64,000 nt of DNA from Spirochaetae bacterium HGW-Spirochaetae-1 (lineage in GTDB: Bacteria > Spirochaetota > UBA4802 > UBA5550): NCBI GenBank assembly GCA_002839375.1, contig PGXY01000002.1, positions 188,392 to 252,391 on the forward strand, given 5' to 3'. Both the position numbers and the translations under genes were made by a program. Each line of letters opens with the position of its first letter. The first letter of the stretch is position 1. Positions 200-17,412 of this stretch are shown here, in pieces. The notes below the pieces were generated by a model. The model ran no database searches. It was not told the origin of the DNA and was given only the letters and a program-made list of their open reading frames with translations.

Positions 200-810
200 A
201 AAAAAATCCGGACGGACCACATGAAAAAAATCATATTCTTTCTCATCACCATCCTCGCCATCACGGGCTGCTCAAAAACCTCATCATTCGTCTATGAAAT
301 TAAATCCTCATCACCCACGGTAAAGTCCACCAGCCCGCGTTTCAGCTTCGACAAGAGTCACCTTATCGACGGCGATACAAAGACCTCGTGGCAGATCAGG
401 ACCGCTAAAGGCGGAGTAGGCGAGTGGCTGGAACTGAAGTTACGGGAACCCATGGATATCTCTGAGATAGTCATATCCAACGGTTTTCAGCTCATGGACC
501 CGGAATATGGCGATCTGTACTTTCTCAACAGCCGTCTGCGAAAAGTGTATATCTGCGGTGATGATATCAAATGTGCCGATTTCAACCTCATCGACACAAA
601 AGATAAGGTCCGTCTCAAGGTGAACTTCAGCAAGGTCATGAATATAAAGATCTACATCAAGGATGTCTATTCGGGATCACGCTGGCCCCAGGATCTGGCC
701 GTGGGCGAAATCAGGCTGGTGAAGAAAATATCTATGGCGGAAATACTTATTGTTGTGCTTGCCATTGCCGGTATAATGGGATTCTTGATAATCTTCATCA
801 AGTCATCCGT
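200..810 (+). repeat. Duplicated lipoprotein module, copy 1
   Basis: This stretch aligns without large gaps to 3449-4059. The match begins in the leader (the shared run aaaaaaatccggacggacca precedes both start codons) and ends in the membrane helix. By hand the two encoded segments are roughly 85 percent identical. Shared non-coding leader sequence shows DNA duplication, not convergent domain use. Confidence 0.85.
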
Positions 811-1387
811 TAGGAATGTCTTTTTTGAAAAACTCAACAGTCTTGTGTCCTCGAAGCATAAAGATGTAGCTTCAAAAGTTGAAATTATGGAATATGATTC
901 AACAACGACATTCAACCAGGAGGCCTACGATAAAGGAAAGGCTTTTGAAGAGCATATTGCCAGAATGTTCGGTTCGCAGAAAGATGATTGTACCATAGTG
1001 CATTGGACCAATGACATTCATACAAAGAAGAAAGATATTTATGTCGAAAGCGATCAGAATCCCGATTTTATTATTCGGCATAATCCAACAGGGAAGGAGT
1101 TTGCCGTTGAGTGCAAGTTCCGGTCTCATTTGTGGAAACGGAAGGGGACCAATCAAAAGGTTCTCAAATGGGCAAGTCATGAACAAATACTGCATTACGA
1201 TACCTTTTCAAAGCAGCGGAATATGCCTGTGTTTATCGTTATCGGTCTGGGAGGAAAGCCAGATCAGCCGATGTTCAAATTTTGTATTCCTCTTGAAAAA
1301 GCTCGGTATGTAGACCTCTTTATCTCTCTATTTTACCGGTATCCTCTGGGAGATAAATTCATCTGGGGAAATGGGATGTTGTCGTAG
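221..1387 (+). CDS. Lipoprotein with glycan-binding-type domain fused to a PD-(D/E)XK nuclease-like domain
   Basis: The protein has 388 residues. A lipoprotein signal peptide ends at Cys17 (motif ITGC). Residues 25-165 resemble the discoidin-like NADase-type glycan-binding domain (DGDTKTSW, GEWLELKL, SNGFQ, NSRLRKV). A membrane helix lies near 171-192. The C-terminal 160 residues look like a restriction-endonuclease fold: GKAFEEHIARMF supplies a helix-1 glutamate, then PDFII has Asp282 and FAVECKFR has Glu297 and Lys299, the PD-(D/E)XK triad. Lipidation outside plus one helix would place the nuclease in the cytoplasm; this topology is inferred. The paralogue at 3470 lacks the nuclease domain. 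The start at 221 was chosen because it gives a clean signal peptide, and an ATG 30 bases upstream does not. An HNH endonuclease gene follows after 21 bases. The substrate and role are unknown. Confidence 0.75.
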   Translation: MKKIIFFLITILAITGCSKTSSFVYEIKSSSPTVKSTSPRFSFDKSHLIDGDTKTSWQIRTAKGGVGEWLELKLREPMDISEIVISNGFQLMDPEYGDLYFLNSRLRKVYICGDDIKCADFNLIDTKDKVRLKVNFSKVMNIKIYIKDVYSGSRWPQDLAVGEIRLVKKISMAEILIVVLAIAGIMGFLIIFIKSSVRNVFFEKLNSLVSSKHKDVASKVEIMEYDSTTTFNQEAYDKGKAFEEHIARMFGSQKDDCTIVHWTNDIHTKKKDIYVESDQNPDFIIRHNPTGKEFAVECKFRSHLWKRKGTNQKVLKWASHEQILHYDTFSKQRNMPVFIVIGLGGKPDQPMFKFCIPLEKARYVDLFISLFYRYPLGDKFIWGNGMLS

Positions 1388-1408: not shown

Positions 1409-2323
1409 ATGCCAACCCCCGACACCTACATCCGCCTCACCGCCTTCAAATGGCTCCATGAACAGGTTGCCCTCCAGGGCGATGTGTTGCCCCGTGATCT
1501 TCTCACCGAAGGCTTTTACCATAATGGCGAACGAATCACCTTCCTCGGCCCCCAGGGAATCTGGAAGCCGAAAATATTCGATGTACCATTGTCAATTACT
1601 ACAGTCATAACCGGCCCATACCGTGACAGCTTTTCTGATGATGGATATCTATTGTACAAATATCGCGGCACCGATCCCCATCATCGCGACAATGTGGGTC
1701 TCCGGAAAGCCGCGCAAAACCAGGTTCCCCTCATATATTTTAACAATGTCATAAAGGGCCGGTACCATGCAATCTTTCCCGTATACATCGTTGACGACGA
1801 TATGAAAAACCTCACCTTCAAAGTGGCAGCCGACGATGAAAAGTTCATGCATATCGAAAACGGCTTTGATTATGTAAAACTTCAGGACAACATCGTGGAA
1901 CAGACCCGTCGATCCTATATCACCACGGAAGTAAAGCAGCGCCTGCATCAGCGTTCTTTCAGGGAACGGGTGCTGAATGCCTACCGGGATCAGTGCTCCC
2001 TGTGCGCACTCAAACACCGGGAACTCCTCGACGCGGCCCATATCATTCCCGACAGCGATCCCGATGGAGAGCCCCTGGTAACGAACGGCCTGTCCCTGTG
2101 CAAACTGCATCATGCCGCCTTTGATAACAATATCATCGGTATATCCCCGGACTACATTGTACAGGGACGCGAAGACATCCTCCGTGAAAGCGACGGACCC
2201 ATGCTGAAGCACGGCCTCCAGGGAATGCATGAGCAGAAAATAATCCTGCCCGGCACCCGGCAGCACTATCCCGACAGGGAACTGCTGGAAAGGAGATTCG
2301 AGATGTTCCGGAAGGCTGTGTAA
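1409..2323 (+). CDS. HNH endonuclease (HNH_2 type)
   Basis: The protein has 304 residues. The C-terminal third carries an HNH_2 nuclease domain: a CSLCALKH zinc-type pair near residue 195, DAAHIIPDSD (first His), TNGLSLCKLHHAAFD (Asn and the final His pair), then IIGISPDY. The N-terminal 180 residues have no domain I can name, but the layout matches proteins annotated as putative restriction endonucleases, where the N-terminus recognises the target. The gene begins 21 bases after the nuclease-lipoprotein fusion on the same strand and is probably co-transcribed with it. No methyltransferase is nearby, so a classical restriction-modification pair is not supported. A role in defence or in mobile-element biology is inference. 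Confidence 0.8.
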   Translation: MPTPDTYIRLTAFKWLHEQVALQGDVLPRDLLTEGFYHNGERITFLGPQGIWKPKIFDVPLSITTVITGPYRDSFSDDGYLLYKYRGTDPHHRDNVGLRKAAQNQVPLIYFNNVIKGRYHAIFPVYIVDDDMKNLTFKVAADDEKFMHIENGFDYVKLQDNIVEQTRRSYITTEVKQRLHQRSFRERVLNAYRDQCSLCALKHRELLDAAHIIPDSDPDGEPLVTNGLSLCKLHHAAFDNNIIGISPDYIVQGREDILRESDGPMLKHGLQGMHEQKIILPGTRQHYPDRELLERRFEMFRKAV

Positions 2324-2896: not shown

Positions 2897-3091
2897 ATGC
2901 TTACAGATACGGAAATAAAAATAAATGGCTACAAGGCGCTGGTAAAGGCGCTTGGCGAAGTTCAGGCCGAAAAATTTATCGCCCTCATGTTGCGGGAGCC
3001 TTTTGATTATACGGAATGGCAGAAAGAGCTGTGGAAAGATATAAGCGTCGATGAATTGAGTCATGCTGCTATGATTAAAAGAAAAAGATAA
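2897..3091 (+). CDS. Small partner protein of the PIN toxin (possible antitoxin)
   Basis: This 64-residue protein starts MLTDTEIKINGYKALVKALG and contains LREPFDYTEWQKELW, with a basic end MIKRKR. It begins one base after the stop of the PIN gene, as in a two-gene toxin-antitoxin operon. I recall small proteins of this type (EIK..GY.AL, REPFDYT.W) paired with PIN proteins, but no DNA-binding fold can be assigned by eye. The ATG at 2897 was preferred over one 30 bases upstream inside the PIN gene. If the toxin is dead, this gene may be a relic. Confidence 0.65.
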   Translation: MLTDTEIKINGYKALVKALGEVQAEKFIALMLREPFDYTEWQKELWKDISVDELSHAAMIKRKR

Positions 3092-3147: not shown

Positions 3148-3181
3148 TCCGTACGGACAGGTCGCGACCTGTCCGTACGGA
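3148..3181. repeat. REP-like palindrome 1 (34 bp, perfect)
   Basis: The sequence is a perfect inverted repeat centred between 3164 and 3165, with arms that read TCCGTACGGACAGGTCG toward the centre. A second copy with the same core lies at 4086-4131, and both are preceded by atgattgcttcct. The palindrome directly abuts the remnant of a REP-associated transposase, the expected companion of such repeats. Confidence 0.8.
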
Positions 3182-3448: not shown

Positions 3449-4059
3449 AAAAAAATCCGGACGGACCACATGAAAAAAATCATATTCTTTCTCATCGCCA
3501 TCCTTGCCATCACGGGCTGCTCAAGGACCTCGTCATACATCTATGAAATAAAATCCTCATCGCCCACGGTAAAGTCCACCAGCCCGCGTTTCAGCTTCGA
3601 CAAGAGCCATCTCGTTGACGGCGATACAAAGACCTCGTGGCAGATCAGGACCGCAAAGGGCGGCGTAGGCGAGTGGCTTGAGCTGAAATTAAAGGAGCCC
3701 ATGGATATTTCTGAAATAGTCATATCCAACGGTTTTCAGCTCAAGGACCCGGAATTCGGCGACTTGTACTTTCTCAACAGCCGTTTGCGGAAAGTGTCTA
3801 TATGCGGCGATGACACCAAATGCGCCGATTTCAACATCATCGACACAAAAGAGAATATCCATCTCGCGGTGAACTTCAAGAAGGTCATGGATATCAAGAT
3901 TGTTATAAAGGATATATATACCGGGTCGCGCTGGCCCCAGGACCTGGCCGTGGGCGAAATCAAGCTGGTCAAGGAAAAATCCGTGGTGGAAATACTTTTG
4001 TCCGTGCTCGCTATTGCCGGCGTCCTGGCGGGATTGGTGTTTTTTATCAAGTCATACAT
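3449..4059 (+). repeat. Duplicated lipoprotein module, copy 2
   Basis: This is the partner of 200-810. Homology includes about 20 bases of leader and runs to the membrane helix (IKSYMKKS here, IKSSVRN in copy 1), where the two genes diverge. Confidence 0.85.
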
Positions 4060-4072
4060 GAAAAAATCATAA
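3470..4072 (+). CDS. Lipoprotein with glycan-binding-type (discoidin-like) domain
   Basis: The protein has 200 residues: a lipoprotein signal with Cys17 in ITGC, a discoidin/NADase-type glycan-binding-like domain (DGDTKTSW, GVGEWLELKL, SNGFQL, NSRLRKV, SRWPQDLAVGEI), and a C-terminal membrane helix (VVEILLSVLAIAGVLAGL) ending in KSYMKKS. It is the short paralogue of the gene at 221 and simply stops where that gene continues into a nuclease. It may present a carbohydrate-binding module on the membrane surface; the ligand is unknown. It is followed at once by a REP-like palindrome. Confidence 0.75.
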   Translation: MKKIIFFLIAILAITGCSRTSSYIYEIKSSSPTVKSTSPRFSFDKSHLVDGDTKTSWQIRTAKGGVGEWLELKLKEPMDISEIVISNGFQLKDPEFGDLYFLNSRLRKVSICGDDTKCADFNIIDTKENIHLAVNFKKVMDIKIVIKDIYTGSRWPQDLAVGEIKLVKEKSVVEILLSVLAIAGVLAGLVFFIKSYMKKS

Positions 4073-4085
4073 AATAGATGATTGC

Positions 4086-4131
4086 TTCCTATACGTACGG
4101 ACAGGTCGCGACCTGTCCGTACGTATAGGAA
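4086..4131. repeat. REP-like palindrome 2 (46 bp, perfect)
   Basis: Perfect inverted repeat centred between 4108 and 4109. The left arm is TTCCTATACGTACGG followed by ACAGGTCG, and the right arm is its exact complement. The core GTACGGACAGGTCG is the same as in palindrome 1, and the flank atgattgcttcct is also shared. It sits 13 bases after a stop codon and could also act as a hairpin at the transcript end. Confidence 0.8.
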
Positions 4132-15825: not shown

Positions 15826-17412
15826 ATGTCAAAAGAATTTGATGTAATTATCGTGGGAGGCGGCCATAATGGTCTTACAGCGGGATGTTACCTTCAGAAG
15901 GCGGGCGAGAATGTTCTTGTTCTGGAACGTCTGGAAAAAGCCGGCGGCGGTGTATGGACTGAAGAGGTGACGCTACCGGGGTTTAAGCATAATCTTGCGT
16001 CAGTGTTTCACGGAATACTCCACATGGGGCCGGTCTACAAGGACCTTGAACTTAAAAAATATGGCGCTGAATATGTCTGGCCTGATGCGCAGGTAGCGGG
16101 AGTTTTTTCTGACGGACGCTGTCTGATACTCTATCGTGACCTTGAGAAGACATGCCGTGAAATCGCACGTTTTTCAGAAAAGGACGCGAATACATATCGG
16201 CAGCTTGCAAAATATTTCCAGGTCATCGTTGACAATATGATAGCTCCCTGGTTCTTTAATCCACCGCAGCCTACATCAATCGCAGCAATGGCAATGGAGG
16301 GAAGCGTTGAAGGATTGAATATGCTTCGAATGCAGCTTTCCAGTACAAAGAATATTATTGAAGAGCTCTTTGAATCGAATGAGTTGAAATCCACTCTCAT
16401 GGCTTTTATTAAAGAATTCGGCGGTTCACCGGATACTTACGGGTTCGGTGTATTTGTTCCCATGATGCTGGGTGAGACACATGAGCCCCATGGATGGGCA
16501 ATTTGCAAGGGCGGTTCGGGAAATCTCGCGAAAGCCTTTGTTAAATGTTTTCAGGATCACGGTGGAACTGTTAAAACCGGTGCTCATGTGAAGCGGATTA
16601 TTGTTGAAGGTGATCGTGCGACAGGTGTTGAACTTGAAGACGGTACTGTTTTTAATGCTAAAAAACTGGTGATTACGAACCTTGATCCGCAGCAGACATT
16701 CATCGACCTGATCGGTGAAGACCGACTTGATGCGTCATTTGTCAGCTCGGTAAAAAGGTGCAGGCCCGAAGGGACTATTCTTTTCCATACACACCTGGCT
16801 CTGGATGAACCACTTGACTGGAAGTGTGCAAAATTCAACCCTGATATTAATAAATGCCTGGGAGTACTTCTGGTGGATAATCCTCAGGAACTCTATGATG
16901 ATTTTGCCGATATCAACAAGGGACACCTTCCGGAATATCCCAGGATGTTTACGGCATACCCTTCCAATATTGATCCGACCCAGGCGCCTGAAGGAAAGGC
17001 TACTGCGGTTGCATGGCAGTATGTTCCCTATAGTCTGCGGGAAGGCGGAGCAGAGGCATGGGATAATGTAAAAGAAAAATTTGCTGATCGCTGCATCGAA
17101 GTATGGAGCAAATATGTGAATAATTTTGGCAAGGCGCTGTTGAAGCGATATGTGATGTCTCCCCGTGACACGGAAAGACTGTGGATATCAATGGTCAATG
17201 GAGGATTCAATCATATTGAAATGAGCCAGGATCAGCTTACGGTTATGCGCCCTTTTGTTGAATATAAACCGTATAAGACCCCTTTTAAGAATCTGTATAT
17301 GTGCGGAGCGAGCACACACCCAAGCGGAAGCGTTGGAGGCGCCTGTGGATATAACGCTGTGCAGGTTATTGCCGAGGATCTTAAAATGAAGAAAAAATGG
17401 TGGGATAAATAA
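15826..17412 (+). CDS. FAD-dependent oxidoreductase, phytoene desaturase-like
   Basis: The protein has 528 residues. The N-terminal dinucleotide-binding motif is FDVIIVGGGHNGLTAGCYLQ, followed by VLVLERLEKAGGGVWTEE; a C-terminal FAD motif reads NLYMCGASTHPSGSVGGACG. This matches the COG1233 CrtI/phytoene-desaturase-like group, also found with steroid, lipid or carotenoid pathways, and the substrate cannot be told from the sequence. AAGGAGG sits eight bases before the ATG at 15826, ruling out the ATG at 15808. Codons end in A or T more often than in the flanking genes. A small membrane protein and a LuxR regulator follow on the same strand. Confidence 0.85.
   Translation: MSKEFDVIIVGGGHNGLTAGCYLQKAGENVLVLERLEKAGGGVWTEEVTLPGFKHNLASVFHGILHMGPVYKDLELKKYGAEYVWPDAQVAGVFSDGRCLILYRDLEKTCREIARFSEKDANTYRQLAKYFQVIVDNMIAPWFFNPPQPTSIAAMAMEGSVEGLNMLRMQLSSTKNIIEELFESNELKSTLMAFIKEFGGSPDTYGFGVFVPMMLGETHEPHGWAICKGGSGNLAKAFVKCFQDHGGTVKTGAHVKRIIVEGDRATGVELEDGTVFNAKKLVITNLDPQQTFIDLIGEDRLDASFVSSVKRCRPEGTILFHTHLALDEPLDWKCAKFNPDINKCLGVLLVDNPQELYDDFADINKGHLPEYPRMFTAYPSNIDPTQAPEGKATAVAWQYVPYSLREGGAEAWDNVKEKFADRCIEVWSKYVNNFGKALLKRYVMSPRDTERLWISMVNGGFNHIEMSQDQLTVMRPFVEYKPYKTPFKNLYMCGASTHPSGSVGGACGYNAVQVIAEDLKMKKKWWDK

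Follow-up and report, generated by a model that had tools for sequence, protein, structure and literature searches.

A putative membrane-anchored nuclease with a discoidin-like periplasmic domain in a Spirochaetota genome

The sequence analyzed here, referred to as the window, is a 64,000-nucleotide stretch of contig PGXY01000002.1 from the genome assembly of Spirochaetae bacterium HGW-Spirochaetae-1 (GCA_002839375.1). At positions 221–1387 of the forward strand, the ORF listing gives a 388-amino-acid open reading frame with an unusual combination of parts. The gene, its features and two of its neighbors are listed below.

221–1387, forward strand: whole gene, encoding a lipoprotein signal, a discoidin/NADase_transloc domain, a membrane helix and a PD-(D/E)XK nuclease domain, in that order (profiles, model and a second full-length copy at L008:883-1980).
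221–271, forward strand: signal peptide with lipobox ITGC and predicted lipidated Cys17 (sequence; LPAM_1 match with E 0.006, below the cut-off).
290–721, forward strand: predicted periplasmic ectodomain, residues 24–167, with the NADase_transloc/F5-8C fold (PF25302, NF047619 and CBM32-type structural matches).
734–808, forward strand: single membrane helix, residues ~172–196, with positive charge on its C-terminal side (hydropathy, model and charge count).
917–1384, forward strand: PD-(D/E)XK domain, residues 233–388 (alignments, AF2 model and Can2 profile match).
947–949, 1064–1066, 1109–1111, 1115–1117 and 1184–1186, forward strand: codons of the nuclease residues E243, D282, E297, K299 and Q322, respectively.
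1409–2323, forward strand: HNH_2 restriction-type endonuclease gene, with its start 21 nt past the nuclease gene's stop codon (PF13391, E 1.4e-8; PADLOC HNH, E 4e-22).
3470–4072, forward strand: short paralogue with the same signal, ectodomain and helix, and with no nuclease domain (profiles, alignment and tree).

An in-frame ATG at 191, upstream of the 221 start, would add 10 amino acids if used. The placement of the lipobox and the DNA similarity to the paralogue, which begins ~24 nt before the 221 ATG, favor the start at 221. Cys17 is retained in the short paralogue and in the second full-length copy. A sequence-only reading of this DNA had described a lipoprotein signal, a discoidin/NADase-type domain, one helix and a PD-(D/E)XK domain in a single protein, and the ORF, the profiles, the hydropathy and the AF2 model all bear this out. 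A match of residues 191–297 to TIGR00342 (ThiI) was dismissed, as its score of 20 bits is far below the cut-off of 264.

The ectodomain is a clear member of the NADase_transloc and NADase-type glycan-binding families. Residues 24–165 match PF25302 (NADase_transloc; E 5.9e-16, 59.4 bits, curated cut-off 27) and NF047619 (NADase_discoid; E 2.4e-23, 83 bits, cut-off 38), each well above its cut-off; “glycan-binding” is here a family name only. The nearest solved sequence in a PDB search is 7ji1 (E 3.5e-6), and gasdermin matches in that search were dismissed (E ≥0.17). The AF2 model of the ectodomain, which is partly confident, with pLDDT below 50 for residues 36–56, resembles CBM32/F5-8C folds in Foldseek comparisons (E ~2e-5). 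Related domains are common in the same order, where NADase_transloc occurs in different architectures; among those found, only the window protein and the second full-length copy fuse it to the present nuclease.

In the C-terminal part, the translation contains the triad D282/E297/K299 that the sequence-only reading had named, within a complete PD-(D/E)XK motif set (the helix glutamate E243, P281-D282 and E297-x-K299) that is conserved in 24 relatives. In the alignment of these relatives, F242, E243 and K299 are invariant, D282, E297 and R301 are at least 90% conserved, and G239, P281 and Y326 are nearly invariant. The AF2 model, with pLDDT mostly above 90, predicts a core whose order matches helix, three strands, helix and strand (helix 233–251, strands 257–262, 283–287 and 293–301, helix 320–333, strand 337–343). 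D282 comes before one strand, the next strand contains E297 and K299, and the helix after that contains Q322, in the standard PD-(D/E)XK arrangement. Pfam matches to PD-(D/E)XK families are weak and below the cut-off (PDDEXK_11, E 0.003–0.013), and the best PDB profile match, to Can2 (7bdv), is also weak (E 0.041), spanning the G..FE and ECKxR motifs. The viral structural matches include RecU (E 3.4e-4). On whether this part adopts a restriction-endonuclease fold, which the sequence-only reading had proposed as a check, the predicted order of helices and strands agrees with such a fold, but no direct PDB match to the nuclease occurs among the 50 Foldseek matches listed, a list that ectodomain matches fill. 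The conserved motif, the predicted helices and strands around the catalytic residues and the weak Can2 profile match give good, if not formal, support for a PD-(D/E)XK domain with predicted nuclease activity. Catalytic residues are altered in two of the five members found in the phylum, where the second full-length copy (L008, genome G134) has Thr for the Glu of the ExK motif (VTCK) and L009 (G190) has Ser for the Asp of the PD motif (PS); these changes suggest that activity may be lost or altered in some members.

Between the two domains lies a single very hydrophobic segment, with a Kyte-Doolittle maximum of 3.24 at residues 175–193. The AF2 model places residues 172–208 in one long helix, followed by the well-ordered C-terminal domain from residue 233. 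Each of the five ectodomain-helix proteins examined has 3–7 basic and 0–3 acidic residues in the 20 positions that follow the helix; the resulting charge bias is weak in the window protein, in which three basic residues also precede the helix, and clear in two Bacteroidota proteins (L070 and L081). Since the protein has an export signal and one helix, its C terminus is predicted to be inside, and we infer a single-pass inner-membrane protein with a periplasmic ectodomain and a nuclease domain facing the cytoplasm. The earlier proposal of a sensing module outside and a nuclease inside is thus retained in part. An extracytoplasmic domain and a cytoplasmic nuclease are what the export signal, the single helix and the charge on its C-terminal side predict, but the ectodomain should be periplasmic rather than on the cell surface, since the helix would hold it at the inner membrane.

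As had been noted, the paralogue at 3470 shares the ectodomain and helix but lacks the nuclease; it is 81% identical to the fused protein over residues 1–199. Comparison of the two gives dN 0.11 and dS 0.56, indicating purifying constraint. In the ectodomain tree, the fused and short copies of the window and the fused G134 copy form one clade (support 100/99). The two window copies group together, with the G134 copy outside them, so nuclease loss after duplication is the simplest account of the short copy, which is probably a nuclease-less duplicate. The genome holds one copy of the nuclease and one short paralogue. The sequence-only reading had taken the paralogue to show that the fusion is real and modular. 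The second fusion establishes the architecture as a real, heritable unit, but the ectodomain tree led us to drop the paralogue as proof of modularity, for which the evidence instead comes from the G134 fusion and the Bacteroidota proteins L070 and L081. A perfect 28-nt palindrome, GTACGGACAGGTCGCGACCTGTCCGTAC, occurs in identical form at window positions 3151–3178 and 4095–4122, on both sides of the short paralogue; there is no further copy in the window, and none is expected by chance.

How widespread is this architecture? The nuclease domain was found in 5 of 393 sampled genomes of the phylum, as well as in 11 of 378 genomes of one Bacteroidota order and 19 of 358 of another, to which G589 belongs. 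None of the 20 genomes of the same family is a further member of the genus. The G134 fusion, from another family of the same order, is 38–41% identical to the window protein from signal peptide to C terminus. As this second fusion is complete, the architecture is no assembly accident, and the possibility raised earlier that it exists only in this assembly can be set aside. The nuclease tree does not resolve a clade of the two discoidin fusions, and a single origin is neither supported nor rejected (p-AU 0.295).

L070 and L081 have the same nuclease after a single helix, but the exported domain between this helix and the signal peptide is a different one. No Pfam family matched this exported domain; on the structural model of L070, which resembles NTF2-like/ketosteroid-isomerase folds (E 3e-6 to 4e-5, with most TM-scores by target at 0.55–0.77), it may be NTF2-like. 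In the order of G589, nearly all nuclease proteins with a readable start carry a single N-terminal helix. Some helix-only relatives (L071, L073, L080, L098 and related loci) have a helical linker of the “ADGVLTPKEE” type between the helix and the nuclease, which may resemble TerB-like segments. Other relatives are soluble or nearly so (L007, L009, L010, L084, L085 and L087). In five Bacteroidales loci (L028–L032), the nuclease of proteins of ~350–430 amino acids follows a soluble domain that matches no Pfam family and a segment that, by eye, resembles a Myb/SANT-like HTH, an uncharacterized architecture. As the majority of the relatives sampled from one Bacteroidota order have only a single N-terminal helix ahead of the nuclease, membrane anchoring is, judged from these sequences, a frequent trait to which the periplasmic domain is an added, exchangeable part. 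The window protein appears to belong to an uncharacterized family of membrane-anchored nucleases.

The HNH_2 gene that follows the nuclease gene is the only one found in this genome. Its product matches NF045808 (phosphorothioate-dependent HNH restriction) below the cut-off, at 59.6 bits versus 180 and over the C-terminal HNH half only, and the same half is all that aligns with the HNH protein beside L070. It is a possible partner of the nuclease protein; the idea of an obligatory partner was dropped, as the gene is absent beside most relatives. Further along, a PIN-domain toxin-like gene (2461–2895) has an in-frame TAG at ~codon 17, close to its start, and is followed by a small ORF (2897–3091); together they look like a damaged toxin-antitoxin pair. 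The ~5 kb upstream of the window is rich in toxin-antitoxin genes, with HEPN/nucleotidyltransferase, Fic and HepT-type pairs (L004 11742–14219). A run of N at L004 ~15950–16000, just before the window start and between two repeat copies, is an assembly gap or a masked stretch.

Restriction-type genes lie beside three of the four ectodomain fusions. L081 adjoins HsdS, PrrC-like and HsdR genes of a type I restriction operon and a FokI/Mrr nuclease, and L070 adjoins HNH_2 and is near HsdM. Among other relatives, L071 is near a type IIG RM gene and PD-Lambda-2, L033 directly follows a type III restriction gene, and L101, L104 and L105 are near PADLOC families. In 16 genomes, N6_Mtase occurs within 10 kb of 3 of 17 nuclease loci versus 0.24 expected (P ~0.001), and HNH_2, present at most once per genome, is adjacent to the nuclease in two of them (G000 and G545) versus 0.035 expected (P ~5e-4); both P values are optimistic and overstate the case, since the families were picked after the neighborhoods had been viewed. 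Many helix-only relatives occupy housekeeping contexts, beside Ppx-like (L099, L103), purN-like (L094, L112) or ilvE/prfB-like (L107) genes. The exopolyphosphatase-like neighbor shared by L099 and L103 suggests a conserved core position. The G134 fusion sits among pst/pho (phosphate) genes, and no defense gene was recognized on its contig. PADLOC gave no convincing family for the window nuclease protein.

The sequence-only reading knew of no characterized system with this order of domains. The exact order of discoidin domain, helix and PD-(D/E)XK nuclease indeed had no match in the literature searched, but its outline has precedents. SNIPE crosses the inner membrane once, with a periplasmic N terminus, a helix and a cytoplasmic nuclease that cuts phage DNA as it is injected, and its N-terminal regions vary widely; the form without the membrane segment is toxic (PMC13190303). 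The window protein is predicted to share this anchoring and orientation, and its family likewise has variable N-terminal regions. SNIPE, however, uses DUF4041 and GIY-YIG domains, and its helix is preceded by no more than a short N-terminal stretch, whereas the window protein has a folded discoidin ectodomain and a nuclease of the PD-(D/E)XK type. As it matches neither DUF4041 (Pfam and NCBIfam scans, E up to 1) nor GIY-YIG (Pfam scan), it is not a SNIPE. Zorya and Kiwa couple envelope sensing to DNA cleavage and DNA binding, respectively (PMC12904381). The window protein may similarly link a membrane event to action on DNA inside the cell, although sensing and DNA action reside in separate proteins in Zorya and Kiwa and in one chain here. 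Can2 and the CARF-PD-(D/E)XK(-TM) effectors of type III CRISPR systems have a weakly related PD-(D/E)XK domain, and one of the Bacteroidales proteins (L028) matches PADLOC CARF_PDDEXK_TM with E 5e-4. Unlike these effectors, the window protein has no CARF match (Pfam, NCBIfam and PADLOC), and its sensor side is predicted to be periplasmic. A membrane-located defense that targets DNA is a reasonable idea for the window protein.

We therefore consider, with about an even chance of its being right, that the protein is an inner-membrane-tethered cytoplasmic nuclease with a periplasmic sensing or localizing domain, serving in defense against incoming foreign DNA. As a family of membrane-anchored nucleases that often lies beside antiviral genes, these proteins may cut viral DNA on entry. 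The N terminus would be exported and probably lipidated, leaving the discoidin-like domain in the periplasm, and one helix would span the membrane and hold the nuclease at its cytoplasmic face. Tethering would keep the nuclease off the chromosome or inactive, such that incoming DNA would meet the nuclease before the chromosome does. The ectodomain would either place the protein at entry or envelope sites or sense an envelope event, and the target, phage or other foreign DNA, would be cut at the membrane. The nuclease protein and its short paralogue may assemble into mixed complexes. A bolder version, which we regard as somewhat unlikely, is that these are receptor nucleases in one chain, in which swappable periplasmic domains, one helix and a PD-(D/E)XK domain allow an envelope event of phage attachment or DNA entry to trigger cutting at the membrane, with the nuclease-less paralogue as partner or brake.

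Could the protein have a housekeeping role instead? The nuclease might take part near the membrane in the uptake, repair or processing of DNA, with the ectodomain merely anchoring it to the wall or envelope. The repeated core-gene contexts of helix-only relatives and the phosphate genes beside the G134 fusion are consistent with such a role, but the patchy distribution described above and the frequent restriction-gene neighbors are untypical of a core function, and we consider it unlikely. It is also conceivable that an envelope signal received by the ectodomain activates the nuclease to cut the cell's own DNA and so stop phage spread. The layout of signal, ectodomain, helix and effector resembles a receptor, the ectodomains are swappable, and a conserved nuclease-less paralogue could damp activation. 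However, membrane-anchored SNIPE spares host DNA (PMC13190303), and the ectodomain is all but missing from many relatives, so that activation cannot in general depend on a periplasmic ligand; we judge such an abortive system quite unlikely.

Two further readings concern the nuclease domain itself. The changed catalytic residues in two of the five phylum members raise the question of whether the domain is no longer catalytic and the protein instead serves at the membrane in binding or as a scaffold, but this is very unlikely given the full motif in the window protein and its conservation in the 24 relatives. The topology might also be the opposite, or the protein might reside in the outer membrane, with the nuclease facing outward and degrading extracellular DNA. 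A Ser after the lipidated Cys and some basic residues on the N-terminal side of the helix would fit this arrangement. As an export signal and one helix place the C terminus inside, and all five ectodomain-helix proteins have a basic flank C-terminal to the helix, L070 and L081 most clearly, outward orientation seems extremely unlikely.

The idea that incoming DNA can be distinguished from the chromosome by where it is, and not by its sequence or modification, is recent, and only a few cases have been worked out (SNIPE, Zorya and Kiwa). If the proposed defense against incoming DNA is correct, a tethered family unrelated to SNIPE, some of its members with folded, interchangeable periplasmic domains, would suggest that membrane tethering evolved more than once to aim a nuclease, and the role of the outside part would be directly testable by domain swaps. 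Clear answers can be expected from ectodomain swaps and catalytic mutants, which makes the proposal worth testing.

Finally, we note the relatives of the nuclease in viruses. A scan of viral contigs gave no confirmed relative. In Riemerella phage RAP44, gp10 (L065 3989–4441) is a stand-alone nuclease domain encoded between a repressor-like gene and an integrase, as in many Riemerella phages, and is possibly a superinfection or lysogeny gene.
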